64,000 bases of DNA from Cyanodermella asteris (Eukaryota; Ascomycota; Lecanoromycetes; Ostropales; Stictidaceae), in contig UYJD01000004.1 of assembly GCA_900618795.1 (NCBI GenBank), forward strand, positions 62,001 through 126,000. The letters are read 5' to 3'. Positions 36,350 through 58,492 of the stretch are shown one piece after another. Every line of letters begins with the position of its first letter. The first letter of the stretch is position 1. Position numbers and translations under genes: made by a program. The notes below the pieces were generated by a model. That model searched no databases, had not been told where the DNA came from, and saw nothing but the letters and a program-made list of their open reading frames with translations.

Positions 36350-39300
36350 TCAGGCCGTAGGAGTCTGCCTAGACGGACTGTTAATTCCGCCATTCATCAG
36401 AACATGATATCCCGAAGCACGCCTCTTGTGCATGAAGTTGACATGTTGGCTGGTGGAGCCGTCGACAATCTCCCAGCTTGTCGGGCTGACGAAGGTTCCG
36501 GTCGAGTCAGCAGCCTCTTTCGCGTTCCACGTGGCGGGGGCTTGAACACTCGAGAACGCCTTCTCCTTGCCAAATGCCTTCTTCAGTTCTTCGTAGAGCT
36601 CGGTGTACACGGAAATATCCTTATCGAATTTGCCATTGCGCTGGAATGTGCGCTTGAGAAGACCAAACTGGCTGGCGACGACTTCGGCTGAGGCAGCGTC
36701 GACGGGCGCGTCGTTCTCATCAGAGACTTCCTCCCGGAGAAGGGCCTCGTGGACGGCAAGAGCCTCGGAGTGGCGGCCAGCAGCGGTCAACAGCGAGGAA
36801 AGCAGGTTGTTGAACTCGACCGTGGTCTTATCCAATGGGCCCCAGACCTGACGAAGGTTGTAGCAAATATCTTGTGCCAGGTGGATAGCGCTCTCCTTGT
36901 GACCATGAGCGAAGCGAGTCTCTACCAGTCGCCGGCCGATGTTGACGATTGTGGCCGGCGACCACGACTTCTGGCTGTGACGGCTGTCCCAAAGCTGAGT
37001 CAACAGCCATTCCAAGTCGACGTAACTTTTCTGGTCTCCCATCAGTGCGACGAGGTTGTTGAGCTCGGTCAGCTGCATCTGCACGAATTCGATCTTGAGA
37101 TGCTTGCATGCGTCAAGTGTGTCGCGCAAGATCTCCTGCGAAAGCTTGAGCATGGATTCGCGAAGCTTGCCTTCCGCAGGTTTTGGCACACCGCGACCAG
37201 CAAGGTAAAGAGCAAGCTTGAATCCGGAGCCGACGTTCTTCTCGTGGTGGTAGCCCTTGTGAGCGTGGACGAACGAGAATACTGCTGTGGCCAGGTCGAA
37301 GGCTTCTTGAAACTTGCCATCTTTGAGGTTCTGCAGCACACGGCTGTTGCCTCCCTCGCAAGCGGCGTTGCCGAGGTGAGCGCTGTGGTTCTCCCTTGAC
37401 AGCTCCTCCAGCATGATGATGAAGAAGCGGAAGGTGATCTCACGAGCCGTCTTGATCTCGGCACCAAGGGCCTTCAAGAACAGCTCAAACAGTTCGGCTT
37501 CGACGTTCTTGACCTGATCAGTGCGACCTTTGCGGATGAGGAAAGCACGGAGACGAGCGCCACTGTTGACGTGTTAGTAGGGCATTTTGACGTGGATGGG
37601 GTTGCTACTTACGTGAGCAGGATAAGATCGATGCGGGTGTGTCTCTGAACCTGGATACGGTACTGCTCATACAGAGCAGACTCCGTAAGCAAGTCTGTCA
37701 TGACAACAGAGAATGACGTCTTCTCCTTCCCTTGAAGGGATTCCTCGAAAGTGGACAAGAAGACGTATGAGGATCGGGTGATGTTATCCAGCTTGAAGCC
37801 CCAAGCACCACTTTGGCTGTAATCGCGGTAGACAATCTGCCGACGCAACTCCTGGAGCAGATCCCAGCCCTTCTGATACAGACCAGCAGAGTTGTAGGTT
37901 TGACCAAGGAATACGGCAGAGTCATACAAGGCCTTGGAGTCCTTCTCGGTGGTGAGGATGTTTGTCGTTGTGGTGGTCAATTCCTTGGAAGCAGCATTGG
38001 TCTGCTCCGAATTCTTGCTCTTAATCCAAAGAGTAACAAGACCCCGGACAGAGTCAAGGGTGCTGTGGTGAGACCATCCGTAGGCAGCCCTGTTGCGAGT
38101 GTACTGGTCCCTGTAGAGGGTAACAGCCTTCTCCGAGTTGGCGCTGTTGGCAGTCGCATTGGCCATGTACAAAGTGCTGAGCTTGCCGCGAGCATTAGCA
38201 AGCAGCGTCAAGAGACCACGGCTGGTGGTCTTGCTCTTCTCAGAATGCTTGAAGCTCTCCTCGTAGTAGCCAATGGCCTCCTGCTGGTGACTCGATTCCT
38301 TGGAGCTGGCGCTTATCTCGGCAAGGTACAGAGTGGCTTGAATGGCTGTCTCGGACTCGGCGCCGTATGTTGCGATAGCTATGTTACGGTACTCAATCGC
38401 AAGTTTACGGAGCGTAGCGTAATCAGCCTTGGACTCTGTTTTGAGAATTTCGACGTAGCGCTCATAGGTAGTCTTGACAAATTCCTCGCGAATTCCGTAG
38501 TCCTTAGCCTTGGAAGTGATGGTGGCCCATAAGAGGTTGAAGACTGTCTGAGCAGACTTGTAGTTCTCACTCTCGTAATAGATGTTGGAGACCGCGATTG
38601 CAGCATCGAAGGCATCCTGATGGCAGACCTTGGCATCCTTGTTGAGTGCGTTTATGATTGCGAGATATACCTCGACGGCTCTCGTCTCCTTGCTACGTAC
38701 CAACAGCGCGGCGAGCGAATATAATGTTGTGATCGTCTTGGTGTTTGCGGTGCCCAAAGACTTGCGGTAGGTCGTGACCAACTCTTCGTAGAAGGCAATG
38801 AGCTTGTCGGTCTGATGAGTCTCCTTGTAGAACTCGATGATGGTTTCAACGAGGCTAGTTAGGCGCTGGTCCTCGACCTTCAGACTCGATTTCGCAGCAC
38901 GGAAGATGTACAAGTAGATCTTCTCCGCACGGTCAACTTGGCTCAGCTTCCAGCGACAGTACGCTTCACGGACAGCGATATCGACCGCCTCTTGAGAATA
39001 ACTGTCAGGGAATTTTTCAGGAGAAGAGAACTTGGTCAGCGAGATCCAGAGAGTAGCCAAAACACGCGAGCAGATCTCAGCTGCTTCGTTCCAGTTGCCC
39101 TGCTGCACATGATACTTGCTGAGAGTTTCAGTCGTGTGAATGGTCGAAGCATCGATGGTTACGGTCTTGCTGGTGCCGAAAGTCGACTGGAAGACCTCCA
39201 TGAGAATGGACGCATAGCCAGTGCCACTGCCGGTTGTAGCGTCTGGAACATCCTTGGCGGTGTGAGTCAGGTTAATGGCAACATCAGCAGCCTCTTTGCT

Positions 39301-42300
39301 GGACTGTCTGTTGGTGCGTTTGAAGTAACTCCACAGGGATGCGAAGATGGAGGTGGCGACGCTGGCAACGCCGAGAGTGCGCAGCTCCTTTCCAACAGTG
39401 GTCAGGCGGCCGGCAACTGCATCAGATTTGATGTCCTTCGTCTCGTATTCAGACCACAGACCCATCAAAATGCTAGAAGCCTCCTGCTCACGCTTGTGAC
39501 GTCGCAAGAAAGCAACGTACTTCAAAACGATATCGATCAGCTGAGAGTGGGCTTCAGCGGTCTGGGAAGTAGTGGCGTGCTGAGCCAACTTCTGCCACAG
39601 CGTGATGTAGGTCTCCTCTGCACGCGCAAAGTCCTTCTGAGCTTCGTAGGTGTCAGCCATTTGGAAGGTGGCATCGACACGACGCTCATCAGAGATGTGC
39701 ATAGTCTTCTCGGCATTATCGAAAATGTTCTTGGTGTAGGGTGTAATGTCGTCATGCTTTCCTTCTCTTGTAATGATGTCGGTGACATCGCGGGACGAGT
39801 CAATGGTCTCCTTGGACGAGACACCATAGCGGGTGACATTGGCCTCGTGAATCTGTCGGAAGATCGCAGATGCCAGACTGACCTCAGCAATGCTCTTGTA
39901 GAGGGACGCAAGAGATCTCTTGTAGCCAAGAGTCACGTCGGATGTGGAGTCATGTTCATGTTCAGAATGAGCGACCTGCGGAGAGTCAGTTCAATTTTCC
40001 GTATACATCTTGGGGCCGTCTACACTGCAATGTCGTGTAATATACTTACAAGGTATTTGAGAGTCTCCTCCTTGCTGGTGGAAAGATCATCACGCTTGCT
40101 GCTCTGGGTAGTCTTAACCAGGTTCCAGTAATTGGTGGCAAAGAGCACAGTCAAGCTAGACCACTGGCCGAGAACCGTCCTGGAGATCGTGAAAGCGCTG
40201 TAGTAATACTTGGTGGCCTCACGAGTATTGCCAGTCTTCTCAGACGTAGTCGCAACATTGAGGTAGCTCTGTAGCACGCTTTTATCGAGACGTCCCAGGA
40301 TACTTTCGCGGATGGTCAAGGCCAGCTCGTGCAGACGAGTGACCTCAATCAATGACAATGAGCTCTCCCAGGTGGTCTTTTCGAGCAAAGGGAAGATAAC
40401 AACATTGGGGAACAGCTTCTTGAACTCGACGGTAAAAGTGTGCTGGCCATTGTCCTTGTAGAGTGTGGTTCTGCGAAAGTGAGTGGTCCAGTGACGAATA
40501 GCATAGGACAACAAGGGGATGTCGTGGAAGAGCTCGTTCACGACATGGGGCTCGAGGCCCTCGACACCGGGCTCTTCGTCACGAGTAAGAGACAATTTGA
40601 TATGAAGGAGGATGCGAGAAAGCAAATCGAGGTTAGCTTCCTGTGGAGGAGCAAGAGTCTTGTTGGTGGTGGCGATGTGGCGGAGGTGTTCACTGATGCT
40701 GAGATGGCGGAAGCGTACACTACCATCTTGAACGACGACAAGGGCGTCTGCGTCCTTGAGGATCTCGCTGACGTCGCCATTGAAGGGGATCTTCGTACCC
40801 TTGCTGACGTCTGTCTCGAGCAAGAGGCGCAGTTCGTCGATTGTTAGACTGTCTTCAGAGACCAGTAGCCAACCGATAATGGTCTTCGCAGCAGGCGTGG
40901 TGATGGCAGTATCAACCAGGGTCTGAAGAACAACATCCACGTTCGGGGCCTTCTTGAGCAGATCAAAGATAGCCTGCTTCGTGCGTTCACGAGCTAGGAG
41001 GTACAATAACAGGTTGGCGGTGACGAAGCTGCCCTGGCTGCGATCAGCTACATCCCACGATGCCTTCTCAAGATCTGCATCATCCTCCGGAATGGAATGA
41101 TGGGTCGAGAGGAAGTGACGAGAGAGGTTGTAGACATCGGTACGAGTGTGCTCAGGCTTGATTGTGAAATGCTTGGTTTTGGGGTAAGCAGTGGGTACCG
41201 TTTGGGAGGCCGTAATGACTCTGACACCAAAGTACTTGGTGGCAAGACTGTGCAGGCGGTCGAAAATACGTTTTGATGTGCCATCGGGTCCAACGACTTC
41301 GTTGACACCATCAACAATCAGAACCATGTCATTGGCCTTGGAGACCGCGTGATCTAGAACGTCCCAAAGAGCGGTCTCGATTTCCGAGCTAGTTCCCGAA
41401 CGAGTAGACAGCTCGTAAACCTGTACAAGCGAATTGTACAGAGTCGTGTCGCCAATATCGCGCTCAAGGACTTGTAAGAGTAGACCCTTCACGAGATTCA
41501 ACGAGGTGGACTTGGATGGAATGTTCGCATCGAGGAAATAGCTAATGCCCTCGATGTATCGGCGACCAACTGGGCGCTGAAGCCGCTCGGCGATCCATGA
41601 TGACAGAACACTCTTGCCCGAGCCAGCCTGGCCCTCGATCGAGAGAATGTCGTCTTTGCTGCGGATGAAGTCGCTCAAATGAGCTTGGAACCACTCACAG
41701 CTGAATTCAGCACGCTCGGCTTTCGGGTTACTGATGCTGACCGGCAGACCAGAGCCAGCGGCACCTAGCCAGATTCGCAGAGTTGAGATTTCCACGTAAT
41801 GATTGCGAGTGTCAGGGCTCTTCTCCAGTCTGAAGGTCCACATGGCGTTCGCTGCGCGGTCCTTACGGCTGAAGAATTCGCGAATCTGACGGCCAAACTG
41901 CTTGGTCAAGTTAACTTGAACTCGAGTTGACGTGCTCTCATGGGCCTTGCGATTGTAGAATGCAGCAATATCGACAATGAGCTGAATCAAAGATAGATAG
42001 GAATGCGCAAGCTCGTGACGAACAGTTCCGACATCGAGTAGCTCTTGGTGGCGGATGAAAAAGCTAAGGGTGACTGCCTCTTCGTAGAAGATGCGAAATG
42101 CTCGCTCAAGCGCCTGCGCCTGGCTCGGACCCATGTCCAGCAGCGCTCTTAACGAGATGTACACCGCGTGGGACGCCTCGAGGCTGTGAACCAGGAAGCC
42201 GTGGACAACCTGTTCAAAGATCGAGACCTGGTCGGCGACGTATTCGGCCCATTTGAGCACACGATCCCATCGTCCGCCCTGATGAGGAATCCGGCGGAGG

Positions 42301-43319
42301 CGCTCAGCCGCAACAAAGTCAAGAAAGTCGTTGATGGTGAGCTTGGTCGCAACATGGTCTTTCTCGGCAAATGAAGTGCGTAGGGAGGCGATCTTCTTCT
42401 CATAGCGGGGAGCAGATTCCTGAAGAATAGTGATTTGAGAGAAATTATCTGGAGCACCGCCCTTGTTGACAGTTCCGTTGCCGTTGACTCGTGCCGCTAC
42501 GGCAGCCATTTTGGATTGGGTAATGCGAATTGGTTCTGGAGTTGCTTGTGTCGAGTCTTGTGTCGAGTCTTGGGTGGGCCGTTGAGCTTCCAACCACTGA
42601 GAAACAGGTGTTTCTCGAGGTCCTGAAGCGATTTGTGGAACTGTTACAGGACTTGTTTCGAGGCCGAATCCAGAAACGGGTCTCGGTTTCGGGGCTGGAG
42701 TGGGAGTCTCTGGCCTTTCGATCGAGGCGGTTTCCAATGGAGCCGATCCTTCACCGCTAGAGTGAGCGACCCCTGGTAAGGCTTGGGAGGAGCCTTCCGA
42801 TGGTGTAATGAAGGAGCTATGTCTACGACTTGAGCTCGCTGAAGCCGGAGTAGAATGCCTGTCTGCGCGTCGTCAGCATTCAGCCATAGGCACAAACCGT
42901 CCGTATCAAAGAATTTCTTTCAAGAACTACAACAGTGACACGAGTCTTGCATTTCGGGGGACATTCACTCGAGTGATCGTAGAGAACCCAAGTTCCGAAC
43001 TAACGTCAGCACTTCGTCAAGTACTCAAGTACTGAGAGAAGTACCCAGCGAAGTGGCCAACAGGGTGTCCAACGGAATGCCTGACGGAGTATCCAAGGAA
43101 GTACTCAGGCAAGAGTCTAGCCATGTGTCCGGCATTTTGGCCCGCCAATGTCACAAGGCAAGCGAGCGGTGTCAAGCAAGGCAAGGGGAAACACTCACGT
43201 CGGAGTCCTAGGAAGGTGAGCACGTCGTCTGTGGTCTCTTTAACTCTTGACCGCCGTCTTCTTCTGCCGGTAGACGATCGGTTGACTGATGCAGGAGTAT
43301 CTGTGGGGGTTCGCGACAT
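36350..43319 (-). CDS. Giant NACHT-type STAND protein with TPR-like C-terminal region
   Basis: Four exons (43319-43199, 42862-40050, 39975-37613, 37562-36350) join in frame to 2,169 residues. Order: a basic, Ser/Pro-rich N-terminus with RRRRRSRVK; a helical region at about 230-340 (GRWDRVLKWAEYVADQVSIF and following) that resembles the DUF7708-type domain found before fungal NACHT domains; a P-loop GQAGSGKS at 451-458; a Walker B-like MVLIVDGVNE at 553-562; a winged-helix-like stretch; then more than 1,200 residues of helical, TPR-like repeats with many A-x-x-x-Y/F patterns. This is the architecture of fungal NLR-like STAND ATPases, which act as sensors or scaffolds in non-self recognition and other signalling; the role of this one is unknown. 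Intron 1 is 336 nt and holds 12-bp array copy 4. A 397-codon plus-strand frame inside exon 3 is a shadow. Confidence 0.88.
43019..43134. repeat. Degenerate 12-bp tandem array, copy 4 (inside an intron)
   Basis: About 9.6 units: AAGTACTGAGAG, AAGTACCCAGCG, AAGTGGCCAACA, GGGTGTCCAACG, GAATGCCTGACG, GAGTATCCAAGG, AAGTACTCAGGC, AAGAGTCTAGCC, ATGTGTCCGGCA, after an 8-bp partial unit. The whole array lies within the 336-nt first intron (43198-42863) of the NACHT/TPR gene. Confidence 0.78.
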
Positions 43320-47960: not shown

Positions 47961-48507
47961 ATGGCTGAAGAGTGAGTTGGTGCCGCTGTTCGCGAGCAGT
48001 TTCAACGAATAATTGTGTTAATTCACGGCTCCAGGGGCGCTCAGAACCTCGTCGACAACGCTGTCGAGGAGGGAAACCCGGCCGGAGGAGCCAAGAAGGC
48101 CGTCGACGATGCCGCCGCGAAGGCGCTCGCTGGTCCGGCTAACACGGACCCGAACGCACTGGGCACACCCAATAATCCGCTCCCATACGGTCTTGTCCGG
48201 CAGAGTCGCATCAAGGACCGCGTTAAGAAGGACGAGAAGGACAGCTCATTGAAAATTAAGATCGAGCTGGATTTGGAAGTCGAGGTATGCACCAGCCTTT
48301 CAGTCTTTCTACTGCCATCCCGCTGTTTCCTGACACTCTGGTCAGCTCGAGTTGTACGCCAGAGTTCGTGGCGATGTGACTATCGGCCTGATGTGACTGC
48401 AACATCAAATCAATTACACATGACTTGAAACTAGCATGAACTAACGAGGTTATAAGCTTGACTTGTACGCCCGCGTGAAGGGCGACGTGACCATTGGCCT
48501 GCTGTAG
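47961..48507 (+). CDS. Small conserved fungal protein with two tandem alternative last exons
   Basis: Exon 1 47961-47971 and exon 2 48035-48284 are followed by two candidate 3'-terminal exons, 48346-48396 (A) and 48457-48507 (B), each 51 nt with its own stop. A encodes LELYARVRGDVTIGLM, B LDLYARVKGDVTIGLL. Either gives 103 residues: MAEEGAQNLVDNAVEEGN, Ala/Gly/Pro-rich middle, RQSRIKDRVKKDEKDSS, then KIKIELDLEVE joined to the last exon. Both acceptors look functional: A has TGACACTCTGGTCAG, B has ACTAACGAGGTTATAAG. Since A ends in a stop the two must be mutually exclusive. Most differences between them are synonymous. The C-terminal motif occurs in a common small fungal family of unknown function. 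The frame is open upstream of the chosen ATG back to 47745, so the N-terminus may be longer. Confidence 0.72.
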
Positions 48508-49790
48508 GTGAGGTTAACTTAATTATACGGGCTTTGACAGGTGGCTAACAATAATGAAAAGAACGGACTGAAAAGGTGGATTTTGGTCGCCATGCCTTCC
48601 AAAGGCATCTTTGTACATACATGGGCATGCAAGTATTAAGTACCTCGCAGAAATGTTCAGACCTTTGCGTGAACCGACTTAGCAAACGCGACCGCCTGTA
48701 ATGAACCGACGTCCGCAAAGCTGGTTCAAGCTTGGACGGCTCCCAGATCTGTACAAGGATGACCGATTCGGCGATTCGGCGAAGCAGGCAGTTCATTGGA
48801 CCTTTCCGTTCGGCTGGATTGTCTTCCTCTCCGACATACCTTGATCCTGGCAATCCACGCGCTAAGCACCGGTCGCATGTGAACAGTGAGCACGTCAGAT
48901 GTTGAAAACGGCCATGATCGCTAACTATAGTTCGAACCACCAAAGGCACTGCTAACACTACTACAAACCTGAGATAAGGATTGTGTATAAGGGATCGATG
49001 CCGAAGCATTATGGCGGAGCTACACCAAAACCAAGAAAGGCCTGTGAAGACCATATGTGAAGTCCTTGGACTGCATTTCAAGGTGAGCTACCAGAAGTCG
49101 TTGCGCAGGTTCTGTTTGAACCATTCTTGCGATTACTCTGACACTCGCTGTTGCAACTGCTCAACTAAGTCCGTCGTTCGACTACACGCACAGCTACTTG
49201 AACACTTTCACTCAGAGGTATAACGAGCGGTATCTCGGCATCTGTTTGGGGTCGTTTTGCACGATCGTTCCCAACCGGCTTCTGATTGCGCGCGTGCATT
49301 CGTGGTCAGCAAGCATTTGCCCGTGAAGAAAGGGCGAGTTTCGCAACAAGCAAGTCAGCACGCGGATGACCAAAAAAGTTGGTCACCCTGAGAAAGGTTA
49401 CAGGGCCAGTGGCCGCCTAAGCCAACTGTAGATGCCACCTGAGCGTCGTTGAATCTTCTCCCTAAAGTCCACTAATCTCACCCGGGGTGGCAACTTGGCA
49501 CAGAAGTGAGCCACTTTTTGTGTCACCCGCATGGTCAGCTAGCAAGTTTTAGCATTCGTGCTGAGCTGACCTCTATTAAAAGCAGATTTACTTGGTTCTT
49601 CAGCCAAGCACGTCCCCCAGCCCGCTGAACAGCCCCGGGACTAACGGTCGATTCGGCGACCAACAATCTTGAGCAACAACCCCCACTTTCTCATCCCCGG
49701 ACCGCTACCACAGTTACACGACTTCATCCGCACACGTGCTCCCAAACTCAATTCATAGGTACCTTTCAGCCACAACACGCTCACGCGAAC
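48508..49790. other. Intergenic, 1.28 kb
   Basis: No gene is called. The minus-strand frame 48545-49081 (178 codons) has no domain, odd composition (Arg/Cys/Ser-rich) and no family resemblance. The last few hundred bases are the promoter of the oxygenase-like gene. Confidence 0.5.
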
Positions 49791-51119
49791 ATGACGACCA
49801 CCAGCACGCATTCGCACGGAGTCTCCAACGATCATTCGACCTCCGATCCCACGTCCCCTGTCGTTGTCCCTCTCAGCAGTCTTGCCGCCAACAGCCTACC
49901 CCTCGAGACGCTGACATCTGCCTTTGGGCCGTCTTCCTTGGGTATAATCTTGGTCAAAGACCTTCCGCCTCAATTCCGCGACCTACGTGCCCGACTCTTA
50001 CAGTACTCGTCGTACCTTGCACACCTGCCCGCCGAAGAACTCGAGCGCGTGACCGTCCCCGAGGCCAAGTACCTCACTGGTTGGAGCCACGGGAAAGAAA
50101 CATTGAAGAGTGGGAAGAAGGATGATTACAAAGGCAGCTGGTACACCAATTGTTCATTTTACCATGAGAAAGGCTCTGCGGTCTCCAGGGGCGCCAACGG
50201 CGGTGGAGGCGGAATAGACGCCATGGTTGCACGGCTGGCGTGCGAAGAGAGCGAAAAGGCGGCCGAGAACGAGGAGGAACAGAGAACAAAGCCAAAAGGC
50301 ACATCTCATACAAACAGTGCGATCAAGGGACACGACCACAAGAGCCCAGACTACAAGGATTATCCCGAGTACAGCAGCCCCAACGTCTGGCCGAGCGAGG
50401 ATCTATTACCCGGGTTCAAGAAAACACTCGAAGAAATGGTCTGTCTGATAATTGATGTTGCGGTCTTGGTCGCACGGCAGTGTGATCGGTTTGCAGCAGA
50501 GACTGGCATTGAAGGCTACCAAAGCGGATATCTGGAACGTGTCGTGAGCACAAGCAAGACTACAAAGGCAAGGCTGCTGCATTACTTCCCGCCAGGAAAG
50601 ACTGGTGCTGCCCCAGCCCGGCAGAACGGTGACGCCTCCCAAGGTGTCGAAGACGACGATTGGTGCACGATCCACAAGGACCATGGCTGTCTGACCGGCC
50701 TGACCAGCGCCCTCTTCATTGATGAATCTTCTCCAGCCCCGGCCCTCAACGACCCCAAGCCCAACCCCGACGGCACGTTCGACCTCCCCCAACTCAACAC
50801 CCTCAAGTCATCACCAGACCCCAAAGCAGGTCTGTACATCTGCAGTCGGACTGGCGAAACGACCAAGGTTGCAATTCCGCCGGACTGCCTTGCCTTTCAG
50901 ACGGGCGAGGCACTAGAGAAAATCACCAAGGGTAAATTTGCAGCGGTCCCGCACTATGTGAGAGGTCCCCAACTGGGGAATGTCGCCGGCGTGGAGAGCG
51001 TTGCGAGGAACACGCTGGCCGTGTTCACTCAACCAAACCTGGGAGAGCCTGTGGACGACAGGGGAACAACGTTCGCGCAGTTTGCGAAGGAAATCGTCGA
51101 CAAAAACACTGTCGGATAG
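49791..51119 (+). CDS. 2-oxoglutarate/Fe(II) oxygenase-like protein (isopenicillin N synthase fold)
   Basis: A 442-residue intronless protein. The second half carries the pattern of the 2OG-Fe(II) dioxygenase superfamily: WCTIHKDHGCLTGLTSALF with the HxD pair at His295/Asp297, the distal His388 in GKFAAVPHYVRG, and Arg406 in ARNTLAVF, the position that binds the 2-oxoglutarate carboxylate (RxS in relatives, RNT here). FQTGEALEKITKGKFAAVPH is the family's usual lead into the distal His. The N-terminal half (SSLGIILVKDLPPQFRDLRA; PEAKYLTGWSHGKE; GSWYTNCSFY) fits DIOX_N-like regions of fungal members. A charged low-complexity insert at about 150-190 (EESEKAAENEEEQRTKPKGT) is unusual. Substrate unknown. 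All metal-binding residues are present, so it is probably active. Confidence 0.85.
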   Translation: MTTTSTHSHGVSNDHSTSDPTSPVVVPLSSLAANSLPLETLTSAFGPSSLGIILVKDLPPQFRDLRARLLQYSSYLAHLPAEELERVTVPEAKYLTGWSHGKETLKSGKKDDYKGSWYTNCSFYHEKGSAVSRGANGGGGGIDAMVARLACEESEKAAENEEEQRTKPKGTSHTNSAIKGHDHKSPDYKDYPEYSSPNVWPSEDLLPGFKKTLEEMVCLIIDVAVLVARQCDRFAAETGIEGYQSGYLERVVSTSKTTKARLLHYFPPGKTGAAPARQNGDASQGVEDDDWCTIHKDHGCLTGLTSALFIDESSPAPALNDPKPNPDGTFDLPQLNTLKSSPDPKAGLYICSRTGETTKVAIPPDCLAFQTGEALEKITKGKFAAVPHYVRGPQLGNVAGVESVARNTLAVFTQPNLGEPVDDRGTTFAQFAKEIVDKNTVG

Positions 51120-54202: not shown

Positions 54203-56008
54203 ATGGCATCAGTTTCAATCTCGACGCCAACCAAGAGCCACACTGGCCTCTTTTCCACACGCACAGCCGGCGGCCGCATGCCATTGACACCTCCTTCCAA
54301 CAAGCAAAGACGATCGCTGGCAGACACATCAAGAAACTCGTCGCCTTTCACTCCCGTTCGCCAGGCTTCGGGCAAGACATCAGACAGCTACGCCAAGAAT
54401 GTCTCCTCGTACTCATCGCACGTTGCCGCTCGAGGCCACCGTGATTCTCCCAAGTCCAACATCGCAAAGACAAAGACGAGCCCGAAGAAGCTCGAGCTCG
54501 GCGTCTCAGACTGGTCCTTGACTGGCACAGGCCCTGCAAGCCCAGCAAAGAAGACAAAGGCTCCTCTTCGAGCGCAATCCACCAAGACCACCGTCAGACT
54601 TGAGGCCGGCGATCGATTCATCCCGAGCCGCATGGCCAGCGAGGGCATCATCAACAAGGGTTCTGCAAAGCTCGAGAAGGAGCGACCAAAGACCAGCAAC
54701 GGCGAGGGATCATCTGTACTTGCCCGCGCCGCCAGTGCATTCGACGTTGCCGGCCACAGCCTTGACGACGACGCTACAGTCGCTCTCGAGGGCCTGAGCC
54801 TGGACGACGATGAGAAGTCATACACCAAGCCTGCTCCAGATGCCGTTGCATACGAGTCGTCAGTTGCAAATGCCTGCGGCGTCTCCCTCAAGCAGCGAAT
54901 TCTTGCCTTCAAGCCAGCTCCCCCAGAGTCAAACAAGCCGATTGACCTCCGATCTCAGTACAACCGTCCTCTCAAGCCTACCAGCGCAGCCAACGCACAG
55001 TTCCGTCGTCGCGTCTTGACCGCCCCCGAGCGCGTCCTTGATGCTCCCGGTCTGGTTGATGACTACTACCTCAACCTTCTCGACTGGTCATCTGGCAACC
55101 AGGTGGCCATCGGCCTCGAACGTGATGTCTACGTCTGGTCCGCAGAGAGCGGCAACGTTGCGTCCCTTCTTCAGTGCCCATCAGACACCTACATCTCATC
55201 AATCAAGTGGTCCGGCGACGGTGCTCACGTTGGCGTCGGTCTCGGCACTGGTGAGGTCCAGATTTGGGACGTTGAAGAGGGCTGCAAGGTTCGCAGCATG
55301 TTCGGCCACGAGACCCGCGTCGGCGTCATGGGCTGGAACAAGCACATCCTCTCCACTGGAGCCCGCTCTGGGCTGGTCTTCAACCACGACGTGCGCATCG
55401 CTGACCACAAGGTCGCCGAGCTCGTCAGCCACCAGGCTGAGGTTTGCGGTCTCGAGTGGCGTGCCGATGGTTCCCAGCTCGCTACTGGCGGCAACGACAA
55501 CCTCGTCACCATCTGGGACGCCCGTTCTCTCACCGCACCCAAGTTCCAGAAGACCAACCACCGCGCTGCAGTCAAGGCTCTTGCGTGGTGCCCATGGCAG
55601 CCCAACCTCCTCGCTACTGGTGGTGGCTCGTACGACCGTCACATTCACTTCTGGAACACGACGACCGGTGCCCGCGTCAACAGCATCGACACTGGATCTC
55701 AAGTCACATCTCTCCGCTGGAGCCCTCACTACCGTGAGATTGTCAGCTCATCAGGCTTCCCCGACAACAGCTTGAGCCTATGGAGCTACCCTACCCTCGT
55801 CCGCAACACCGAAATCCCAGCACACGAGACCCGTGTCTTGCACAGCTGCCTCAGCCCCGACGGCCAGATGCTGGCTACTGCGGCGGCCGACGAGAGCTTG
55901 AAATTCTGGAAGATCTTCGAGCGCAAGGCGGGCCAGGGCACAGTCAGTGCTGCGCAGAGCGGCATGAGCAAGGGTAGCGAAATGGCCAAGCAGATGACGA
56001 TCCGATGA
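54203..56008 (+). CDS. CDC20: APC/C co-activator Cdc20
   Basis: WD40 co-activator that brings substrates such as securin and B-type cyclins to the anaphase-promoting complex and is the target of the spindle checkpoint. 601 residues, no introns. The N-terminus is basic and Ser/Thr-Pro-rich. The C-box is DRFIPSR at 137-143; an LKQRILAFKPAPP motif (KILxxKP-like) follows near 230-240, then YYLNLLDWSSGNQVAIGLER at the start of a seven-bladed propeller with typical repeats (SGDGAHVGVGLGTGEVQIWD, GSQLATGGNDNLVTIWDA, PWQPNLLATGGGSYDRHIHF). The protein ends in Ile-Arg, the IR tail that docks on APC3. All hallmark motifs are present, and the presence of DWSSGNQVAI and the KILAFKP-like motif favours Cdc20 over Cdh1. 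Confidence 0.96.
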   Translation: MASVSISTPTKSHTGLFSTRTAGGRMPLTPPSNKQRRSLADTSRNSSPFTPVRQASGKTSDSYAKNVSSYSSHVAARGHRDSPKSNIAKTKTSPKKLELGVSDWSLTGTGPASPAKKTKAPLRAQSTKTTVRLEAGDRFIPSRMASEGIINKGSAKLEKERPKTSNGEGSSVLARAASAFDVAGHSLDDDATVALEGLSLDDDEKSYTKPAPDAVAYESSVANACGVSLKQRILAFKPAPPESNKPIDLRSQYNRPLKPTSAANAQFRRRVLTAPERVLDAPGLVDDYYLNLLDWSSGNQVAIGLERDVYVWSAESGNVASLLQCPSDTYISSIKWSGDGAHVGVGLGTGEVQIWDVEEGCKVRSMFGHETRVGVMGWNKHILSTGARSGLVFNHDVRIADHKVAELVSHQAEVCGLEWRADGSQLATGGNDNLVTIWDARSLTAPKFQKTNHRAAVKALAWCPWQPNLLATGGGSYDRHIHFWNTTTGARVNSIDTGSQVTSLRWSPHYREIVSSSGFPDNSLSLWSYPTLVRNTEIPAHETRVLHSCLSPDGQMLATAAADESLKFWKIFERKAGQGTVSAAQSGMSKGSEMAKQMTIR

Positions 56009-56863
56009 TTGTTGTCAAACTGCAGGCATTGATGAGTTGACGACGGTGGTGTAATGATGATGAGCGCCTCCGACTGTGCATAGTGGCTTTCTTTGGTCAT
56101 AGTTACGGGCATCGTCCCCAGATAATCCATGGATTTTCATCGAACGAGCAAGTCTTTCGTAACGGTGTCGTGTGAGCTGCATGCAATTTTGTCACGGCAC
56201 AATTTCGTCGCATATGAATAAGTTATTCGATTGTCCGGGCTTGCAAATAGGGAACGCCTTTCGATCTTCACAAGAACGTGAATATGCAGCGACGCCCAAA
56301 GTAGTCACCTGCAGAGTGTTACATAGAATGCACTTTGCTCAAGTTCAGACAAACTGGTTTTATCTCAATGTATGCATGAAGCCCAGAAGCTACCTATTCC
56401 CTTGACGGTCGGATTCACGCTGGCTGGCTGCAGCGCCAAGGCAGTGCCGTCCAGGGCGTTGTAGCCCGAGACACAGCGGCAAACAGAAGCCGTGGCCGCT
56501 AAGCGAGCTTGCGACCTTTCACTCCTCCCTCTGCCGCCGCATTTACAATCATACATAAACAGGCCGGGATTTCAGTATCCTCAAGAACGGCATTTGCGTG
56601 CCATCAGATCCTGCTAGCCGATATTCTACGAGCTCGGGATTACCTTTGACCAACTTATGAGGTTCTAAACCTCCACTCGCGAGCGCCAGGTCCGCTGGCA
56701 GTTCGCCCTTGCTCATCACCTCAAACCCACCTTTCGACCACAATCCTGACTGATAAGCATCTCTTGCTTCAGTTTTGCCCCTTCTCCGCTTGCGTGCTTG
56801 CTTGGAGCTGTTGCTACCACCTCCTTCGGCGTCTGAAACCTTCTTCCTTCATATCCTGTCAGC
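56009..56863. other. Intergenic, 855 bases
   Basis: Between CDC20 and the TFIIA gene, same strand. No gene, repeat or RNA recognised; includes the TFIIA promoter. Confidence 0.5.
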
Positions 56864-58492
56864 ATGTCGAACACGCAGGTGGTGAGTAATGGGTATCCTG
56901 GGGGCTTGAGCATGAAACCAAGGCTAACGCAACCTCCTTCAGGGCACAGTCTACTCTCGCATCATTGAAGAGGTAGTCAAGCAGTGCGCTGGTCCATTCG
57001 AAGAGGAGGGAGCCTCAGCCAGCGTCCTGGATGACTTCAAGAAGGTGGGTGACTTGTGCATAACTGTTTGTCGGTGTTTTGTCTTCTCGATTCCTGTACA
57101 CATCAGACATGCTGCGATCGCAGCGAGACCATACTATATCAGCATAAAACATCACTTGGTGATGGGTGCGGTGCCAGTCGAGGAGCAGCTTGTGGGCGAC
57201 TTCTTTGTCTGGGGGCGCGAGACGAGCGGCCAAGAGGGCGGGCGGGCGACGGCGGTAGTTGAGGATGCGGAAGTCGCGCGACTTTGACCCTCCATTTTAT
57301 GCTGCTGCCGCCCGCCTTGGCATCGTTAGGCACGCAGTCACGTGCGCCTGTTTATCCGTGCCCCAAATCGTCTTACTATTATAGCCTGTTTTCATACACT
57401 GCATGTTTGGTTTGACGTTTCCACCATGATGGTCGCTGACAACCATTCTTCAACAGACATGGCAGCAGAGGATCAGCGAGCGCAAGGTTGCCGACATGCC
57501 GTGGGACCCTAAGCCGCCTCCCCCTGCCCCTGCAATTCAGCAGCCTCCTCAGCCAAGAACCGCTCCACCATATGTGCCGCCACAATCCCAACAGCAGCAA
57601 CCCCTCAGTCAGATGGACATTAAGCCCGAGATCAAACAAGAACTTCCCGGTCTTCCCCCAGTACAGCCGCAGTATACGCACCATAACCCGGACCTTGCCA
57701 GGGAGAGGGCTGCTGCTCAGATTCGCAGTAAGTATGGCGAAGCCGCCGATGCTTCATTGCAGCAGATGAATCAGCGTATGCCAGAGCCTGCACATGGCGT
57801 GAAGCGTTCCTTGCCGCAGGGAAGCCCGACGGGAGAGGGATTCGACTCGAAACGTCGCATCGTGGACGACTACAACCGTAGCCAGCAAGCAATCGCTCAG
57901 CAACGTATTCAGCAGCTCAGCGCCGCCCAGGTCCAAGGTCAGCCACGACTGGGGAATGCACAGACTGACGGAGCAGCTGACTGGGCGCAAATGGTCGCCG
58001 AGCGCCGCGCTCTCTCTGCTGAAGGAAGCGCCGCTGCCGATATGTCCATTGCTGAGCGCGTTGCGGCTCTTCAACGCGCCGAGGAGGGCAATGGCGCTAT
58101 GCAGCCGCACTCCAAGCAGAAAAAGGCTTTGAAGGTCATGTCCACCACGGCTGGTCCGTCTTCCGGTCCTGCCGCTTTCGATGGTCCGGACGATGACGAC
58201 GACAATTCTTCTCCTCCCGTCGACGATGCCGATGCTATTAACAGCGACTTGGACGACGACGATGAGGATGATGATCTTGTTGACGAGGACGACGAGAGGG
58301 CAGGCGAGATCATGGTCTGTACCTATGAAAAGGTTGCCAGGGTCAAGAACAAGTGGAAGTGTACGCTGAAGGATGGCATTTTGATCACTGGAGGCAAAGA
58401 GTAAGTTGACATCGTCCTTTTGTTATCATGACCGCCCACTGACATTGTGCAGATACGTCTTCAATAAAGCCACGGGCGAGTTCGAATGGTGA
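56864..58492 (+). CDS. TOA1: TFIIA large subunit (alpha/beta)
   Basis: Large subunit of the general transcription factor TFIIA, which stabilises TBP on promoters. Four exons (56864-56881, 56943-57044, 57457-58400, 58453-58492) encode 367 residues. The N-terminal helical domain reads GTVYSRIIEEVVKQCAGPFE, VLDDFKK, TWQQRISERKVADMPWDPKP. A Pro/Gln-rich linker follows, then acidic stretches (DDDDDNSSPPVDDADAINSD and DLDDDDEDDDLVDEDDERAG), and the C-terminal beta-barrel strand region MVCTYEKVARVKNKWKCTLK, DGILITGGKE, YVFNKATGEFEW, which ends the protein as in other TFIIA large subunits. The spliced order matches the family exactly. Intron 2 is 412 nt, long for this genome, and splits the N-terminal helical domain. 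No alternative product is evident. Confidence 0.95.

Follow-up and report, generated by a model that had tools for sequence, protein, structure and literature searches.

The closest described counterparts of the locus analyzed here are homologous terminal exons, as in human CAPZB, where homologous last coding exons of similar length and phase each carry a stop codon and multiple poly-A sites are present (PMC3228551). The same source reserves strict mutual exclusivity for clusters of internal exons. Tandem exon duplications, in which one of the tandem copies is included, have been treated together with duplicated terminal exons (pip), and with discussion of competing RNA structures, in a paper in which the string 'fung' occurs 0 times (PMC9013439); the homologous terminal exons in the available portions of the papers cited here come from animals. 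In fungi, a single gene can acquire two ends by splicing or readthrough, giving peroxisomal isoforms whose differing C termini retarget the protein (PMC4207609), and the rtnA stwintrons of the Pezizomycotina species Aspergillus niger and Neurospora crassa allow a small exon to be skipped via a farther acceptor (PMC6616335). An earlier note on the DNA studied here had called mutually exclusive terminal exons rare in fungi, a statement that agrees with a survey of fungal pathogens as regards mutually exclusive exons (<0.2% of events) but not as regards alternative last exons, which are among the commonest patterns there (PMC6176087). For Schizophyllum commune, 171 genes are reported to show mutually exclusive exon events, which lie mostly in UTRs and were identified from co-occurrence instead of homology (PMC5034255).

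Here, a small-protein gene of the ascomycete Cyanodermella asteris (28.5-Mb genome, 25 contigs) is described, in which the final exon is present as two tandem copies, designated A and B; the window is the whole stretch of DNA analyzed, 64,000 nt of contig UYJD01000004.1. As in CAPZB, the last coding exons are homologous, match in length and phase, and each end with a stop codon; unlike CAPZB, the gene is fungal, has a single donor and a spacer of 60 nt, and probably uses a shared poly-A region. The tandem arrangement, with one copy predicted to be included, is that of other tandem exon duplications, whereas the competing RNA structures discussed for such genes find no parallel in the 223-nt region that might form an RNA structure switch, which folds no better than its shuffles (z 0.16; folds at least as good in 109 of 200). 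Alternative C termini yielding peroxisomal isoforms were reportedly described in fungi by Freitag in 2012. Similarly, one fungal gene would here have two ends; in contrast to those isoforms, the ends are nearly equal, terminating in GLM or GLL, neither of which is presumably PTS1-like. Predicted skipping of a small exon via a farther acceptor is shared with rtnA, although the excerpted rtnA report describes no duplicated exon. Because both A and B end in a stop codon, they fall outside the class of strictly mutually exclusive internal exons, an assignment that an untranslated downstream exon would change. The pair resembles known homologous terminal exons and is unusual for fungi; among the matches listed from the searched literature (titles and abstract openings), none described a fungal gene with its last exon duplicated in tandem.

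Gene structure

The gene product has ~103 aa, being 103 aa long with either last exon, and its last 16 residues come from exon A or exon B. The features of the gene are as follows.

47961..47971, + strand: exon 1, ATGGCTGAAGA; putative start, from reading of the sequence
47972..48034, + strand: putative intron 1, 63 nt, GTGAGT...CAG; delimited by eye only
48035..48284, + strand: exon 2, ...RQSRIKDRVKKDEKDSSLKIKIELDLEVE, 3′ end in phase 0; from own-genome protein match and homologues
48285..48345, + strand: intron before exon A, 61 nt, GTATGC...CTGAC...CAG
48330..48334, + strand: CTGAC, branch-point consensus of exon A; branch adenosine at 48333, 12 nt before the acceptor
48346..48396, + strand: terminal exon A, LELYARVRGDVTIGLM, stop TGA; resembles the family C terminus
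48397..48456, + strand: spacer, 60 nt, acceptor AAG; would be 3′ UTR in isoform A and the end of the intron in isoform B
48285..48456, + strand: predicted alternative intron before exon B, 172 nt, with exon A inside
48441..48445, + strand: CTAAC, branch-point consensus of exon B; branch adenosine at 48444, 12 nt before the acceptor
48457..48507, + strand: terminal exon B, LDLYARVKGDVTIGLL, stop TAG; family-range residues except L1

The start assigned to exon 1 is the sole ATG in a frame open from 47730, although the gene may have a further exon upstream. Intron 1 showed no good branch consensus on reading by eye. On re-reading, the coordinates, 51-nt lengths, phase, TGA and TAG stops, and peptides that the earlier note gave for A and B all proved correct, as did its ascription of a separate branch point, acceptor, and stop to each copy: in both A and B, the A of a CTRAY motif lies 12 nt from the acceptor.

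Tandem duplication of the final exon

Exons A and B are identical at 37/51 nt (73%) and at 13/16 residues, so that their initial description as near-identical suits the protein but not the DNA. Nine of the 16 codons differ, six synonymously and three by conservative replacement (E/D, R/K, and M/L); the conservative nature of the replacements had been recognized before, whereas the synonymous share, then put at about half, is two thirds (6/9). This likeness is not due to chance. When stop-ended open 16-mers lying 30-400 nt apart were compared across the window and 20 own-genome 10-kb stretches (55,996 pairs in 264,000 nt), the A/B pair had a BLOSUM62 score of 69 and the runner-up one of 29. When the own genome was searched with the protein, the matches were the main exon, the last exon in its two copies, and, more weakly, two places on contig C14 (E 0.002 and 0.004).

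A repeat finder placed the bounds of the repeat at 48344-48394 and 48455-48505 (spacing 111), that is, from the acceptor AG to a point inside the stop codon. Identity between the flanks of A and B is 9/20, 12/40 (30%), and 17/60 upstream and 4/20, 7/40 (18%), and 12/60 downstream; the 20-nt upstream stretch includes the branch point and acceptor, and its 9/20 marks this part of the flank as above background. Equal length, equal phase, homology, and a separate acceptor and stop in each copy, the features by which homologous terminal exons are recognized, are all found in A and B, which constitute an in-phase tandem duplication of the final exon.

Splice signals at the two copies

Splice consensus is present at both copies. 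A CTRAY motif 9-13 nt from the end combined with a final AG arose in 0.0017 of spacer shuffles. For comparison, 13 putative introns of the same genome were chosen by their CTRAY branch from 44 candidates, the other 31 being set aside, which makes the set small and biased. The distance from branch to acceptor is 9-13 nt in 12 of these 13 introns and their median length is 55; the branches are CTGAC (7), CTAAC (4), CTGAT (1), and CTAAT (1), and the acceptors CAG (11) and TAG (2). Among all 44 candidates the base before AG is spread over C (20), A (11), G (10), and T (3), suggesting that many candidates are probably false. AAG acceptors occur in 11/44 candidates, all 11 lacking a branch consensus, and in 0/13 branch-bearing introns. 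The scan reaches introns of about 45-132 nt, and the 172-nt intron lies beyond it. An earlier intron pattern scan did better than its reversed-sequence control for just 2 of the 14 donor/branch combinations and was discarded.

The intron leading to A is like the 13 introns in length, branch, and acceptor. Exon B is preceded by a CTAAC branch, but its acceptor is AAG and its intron measures 172 nt. Because the splice context of A (short intron, CAG) is more typical than that of B, A is expected to be the major form, and B is probably minor or conditional.

Two other routes to exon B were considered and rejected. Joining of A to B via a donor inside exon A would lose the frame, and reading by eye revealed no frame-keeping donor within A. 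Readthrough of the stop of A was likewise rejected as a means of reaching B, the sequence from TGA CTG onward adding only LQHQINYT. As an observation in its own right, the context of stop A at 48394-48399 (TGA CTG) is near the UGA CUA readthrough motif given in the excerpted text of PMC4207609.

A widespread family of small fungal proteins

Judged by sequence similarity, the gene belongs to a widespread, uncharacterised fungal family of small proteins. The family comprises 594 proteins at E<=1, of which the best 120 were listed, and members among the matches listed include Stictis, Toensbergia, Pseudogymnoascus, Penicillium, Fusarium, and Hymenoscyphus. In an alignment of 22 relatives with isoform B, a variable N terminus is followed by a near-invariant C terminus, SRIKDRP..DSSLKIKIELDLEVEVDLYARVKGDVTIGLM.

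Residues at each position of the last exon were counted in 119 of the best 120 of the 594 proteins, P0001 being excluded because its last exon is read in another frame. Position 1 is V in 118/119 (G in one) and position 8 is K in 118/119 (Q in one), whereas position 2 is D in 84, E in 33, K in 1, and Q in 1, and position 16 is M in 105 and L in 14. The C-terminal end is the same in 117/119 members, one being longer by 1 residue and one by 19. Since E/D at position 2 and M/L at position 16 both occur across the family, the differences between A and B at these positions represent the family's own variation. All residues of exon B except L1 are within the range of the 119 members. L at position 1 is present in both A and B and in none of the 119 members, which fits a duplication that followed a V -> L change.

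No Pfam family was found for isoform A, isoform B, P0012, or P0083, and a PDB search with P0012 yielded no relative (best E 0.72). An AlphaFold model of P0012, based on an alignment of 38, was of low confidence (mean pLDDT 60.5, pTM 0.19) and was set aside. Searches with the family alignment gave 57 pattern matches in prokaryote contigs and 16 in viral contigs, none of them a relative.

Selective constraint on the two copies

The difference between A and B is under protein-level constraint. The copies differ at 12/48 sense nt, distributed 3/1/8 over codon positions 1/2/3. When 12 changes were placed at random (200,000 trials), <=3 residue changes resulted in 0.13-0.21% of placements, and a BLOSUM score as high as that of A/B in 0.0035-0.0045%, each such test being small, with 16 codons only. 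The few residue changes, the diverged flanks, and the low odds of random placement bear out what had been proposed from the first reading, namely, a duplicated exon kept under constraint on its protein. Gene conversion, instead of selection on each copy, could also explain the high protein identity of A and B; however, conversion should keep synonymous sites alike too, and 8/16 third positions differ, so that it is regarded as very improbable.

Constraint on each copy separately bears on another explanation, in which one exon is used and the other is a relic that has stayed intact through recent duplication or luck. The AAG acceptor and 172-nt intron of B would suit such a relic, as would the out-of-family residue R8 of exon A; because R8 occurs in none of the 119 family members, constraint on A could be slightly relaxed. 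At codon 8, a change of AAG -> CGT would cost only K -> R, provided that the older state is the one seen in B and P0001. When A was allowed to drift freely from a B-like start, the p value for <=1 out-of-family residue was 0.037 if 5 changes fell within 34 nt (the stretch comparable with P0001), and it dropped with more changes, to 1e-5 at 12 changes in 48 nt; with 5 changes spread over all 48 nt, p was 0.052, a value that leaves some room for a relic. The duplication is not recent, because the flanks, unlike the exons, have diverged, and 8/16 third positions differ, which also speaks against a copy preserved by recency. Overall, a relic is unlikely. The evidence from these comparisons for constraint is good for the A/B pair as a whole and moderate for A alone, suggesting that A and B have probably been under protein-level selection for a long time. 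Alternative use of the two copies is likely.

Age of the duplication

P0001 is encoded on a 672-nt contig; this protein of 125 aa, with 86% identity over 77% of the query, appears to read on into the intron, and its end, SSNFTPGSRET followed by a stop, is a shifted-frame reading of the exon for LELYARVKGDVT. On the protein alone, P0001 fits an A-like exon in the position that A occupies, with an intron of about 83 nt before it. By back-translation, third positions are alike at 5/11 between A and B, 4/11 between A and P0001, and 5/11 between B and P0001, although 11 positions carry little weight. The duplication may date from about the time at which the species of P0001 diverged. P0002 is in frame through an intron-like stretch at the same place (LEVE-VSFHP...IRDQ-VELYAR), and the position of the last intron, as far as the protein indicates, is probably common to P0002.

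Proposed mechanism and possible roles

It is considered fairly probable that the locus combines an exon duplication with a choice between alternative 3′ splice sites from one donor, upstream of a shared poly-A region. A tandem duplication would have copied the final exon along with its branch point and acceptor, and the single donor after 48284 would be joined either to acceptor A (48284^48346) or, past A, to acceptor B (48284^48457), with either choice giving an almost equivalent 16-residue C terminus and a stop. A single poly-A region downstream of B would most likely serve both mRNAs, placing exon B in the 3′ UTR of isoform A, which would carry 111 nt more 3′ UTR than isoform B. That both junctions are used, the ratio of A to B, the common 3′ end, and any function of the choice are thus predictions drawn from the DNA. 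The description of A and B as mutually exclusive, also made in the earlier note, is apt in terms of geometry (one donor and a stop per copy), but no special regulation is needed for it.

Fungal poly-A signals are generally too loose for calling from sequence. Two isoforms with different 3′ ends had been proposed originally, and the separate stop in each copy would accord with two alternative last exons, each having its own poly-A site, as would the precedent of the homologous 3′-terminal exons of human CAPZB with multiple poly-A sites (PMC3228551, excerpted text). The distance of 60 nt from stop A to exon B would, however, make for a very short 3′ UTR, and because stop A lies so close to exon B, one poly-A region with an alternative acceptor is the simpler arrangement. 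Separate 3′ ends are therefore considered quite improbable, and the original proposal is not supported, acceptor choice with a shared 3′ end being preferred.

Since the two C termini are so alike, protein diversity is unlikely as the purpose of this choice; possible purposes include a spare exon, different 3′ UTR content, and retention simply because both copies are used. As a tentative suggestion, more doubtful than probable, exon B might be a built-in spare, selected since missed splicing at A would lose an almost invariant C terminus. If so, erroneous and normal splicing would yield the same protein, and redundancy, not diversity, would be what was selected. A fungal pair kept for so long with almost no protein difference raises the question of whether selection can favor exon duplication on account of robustness or of mRNA 3′-end regulation instead of protein diversity. 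The gene is tiny, and its two spliced forms would be distinguishable by their junctions.

Neighboring genes and other sequence features

Two distant C-terminal look-alikes are present on contig C14 of the same genome: LKLRLDLNIDVEIELKARIQGDLTISLM (L003, G000:C14:108134-108316, minus strand) and LRLRLDLNLDIEIQLKAKIHGDLTLGLLN (L004, G000:C14:110441-110659, plus strand). They lie about 2 kb apart on opposite strands, are uninterrupted at the place of the intron in the window gene, and perhaps belong to a wider family with an alternating tail.

Around the duplicated exon itself, an 85-codon stop-free frame runs antisense across A and B (48256-48513, minus strand) and is probably a by-product of conserved codons. 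In the presumed 3′ UTR, 105 nt past stop B, TGTACATA occurs at 48612-48619 and is taken here to be a Pumilio/Puf3-like element. The sequence TGTANATA occurs 6 times in the window versus 1.8 expected, and 0/100 shuffles reach 6.

The next downstream gene (49791-51119) has its first matches in Schaereria dolodes (53% over 94%) and Agyrium rufum (51%), and the highest identity among the 120 matches listed is to a metagenome protein (64% over 57% of the query). For the CDC20-type protein encoded at 54203-56008, the best matches by score are all from lichen fungi, Xanthoria mediterranea and Ikaeria at 77% and Lignoscripta, Xylographa, Pseudevernia, and Alectoria at 76%. As far as best hits can tell in place of a tree, the host is probably a Lecanoromycete-like fungus, with no close annotated relative in the proteins searched. 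The CDC20-type gene adjoins one for TFIIA alpha/beta (54203-58404); in the lichen record P0256, CDC20-type and TFIIA alpha/beta domains are found in one protein, probably a fused gene model. On the minus strand, positions 37609-42737 encode an NACHT/NPHP3-like protein followed by a TPR-type open frame, a region that looks like an NLR-type fungal gene.
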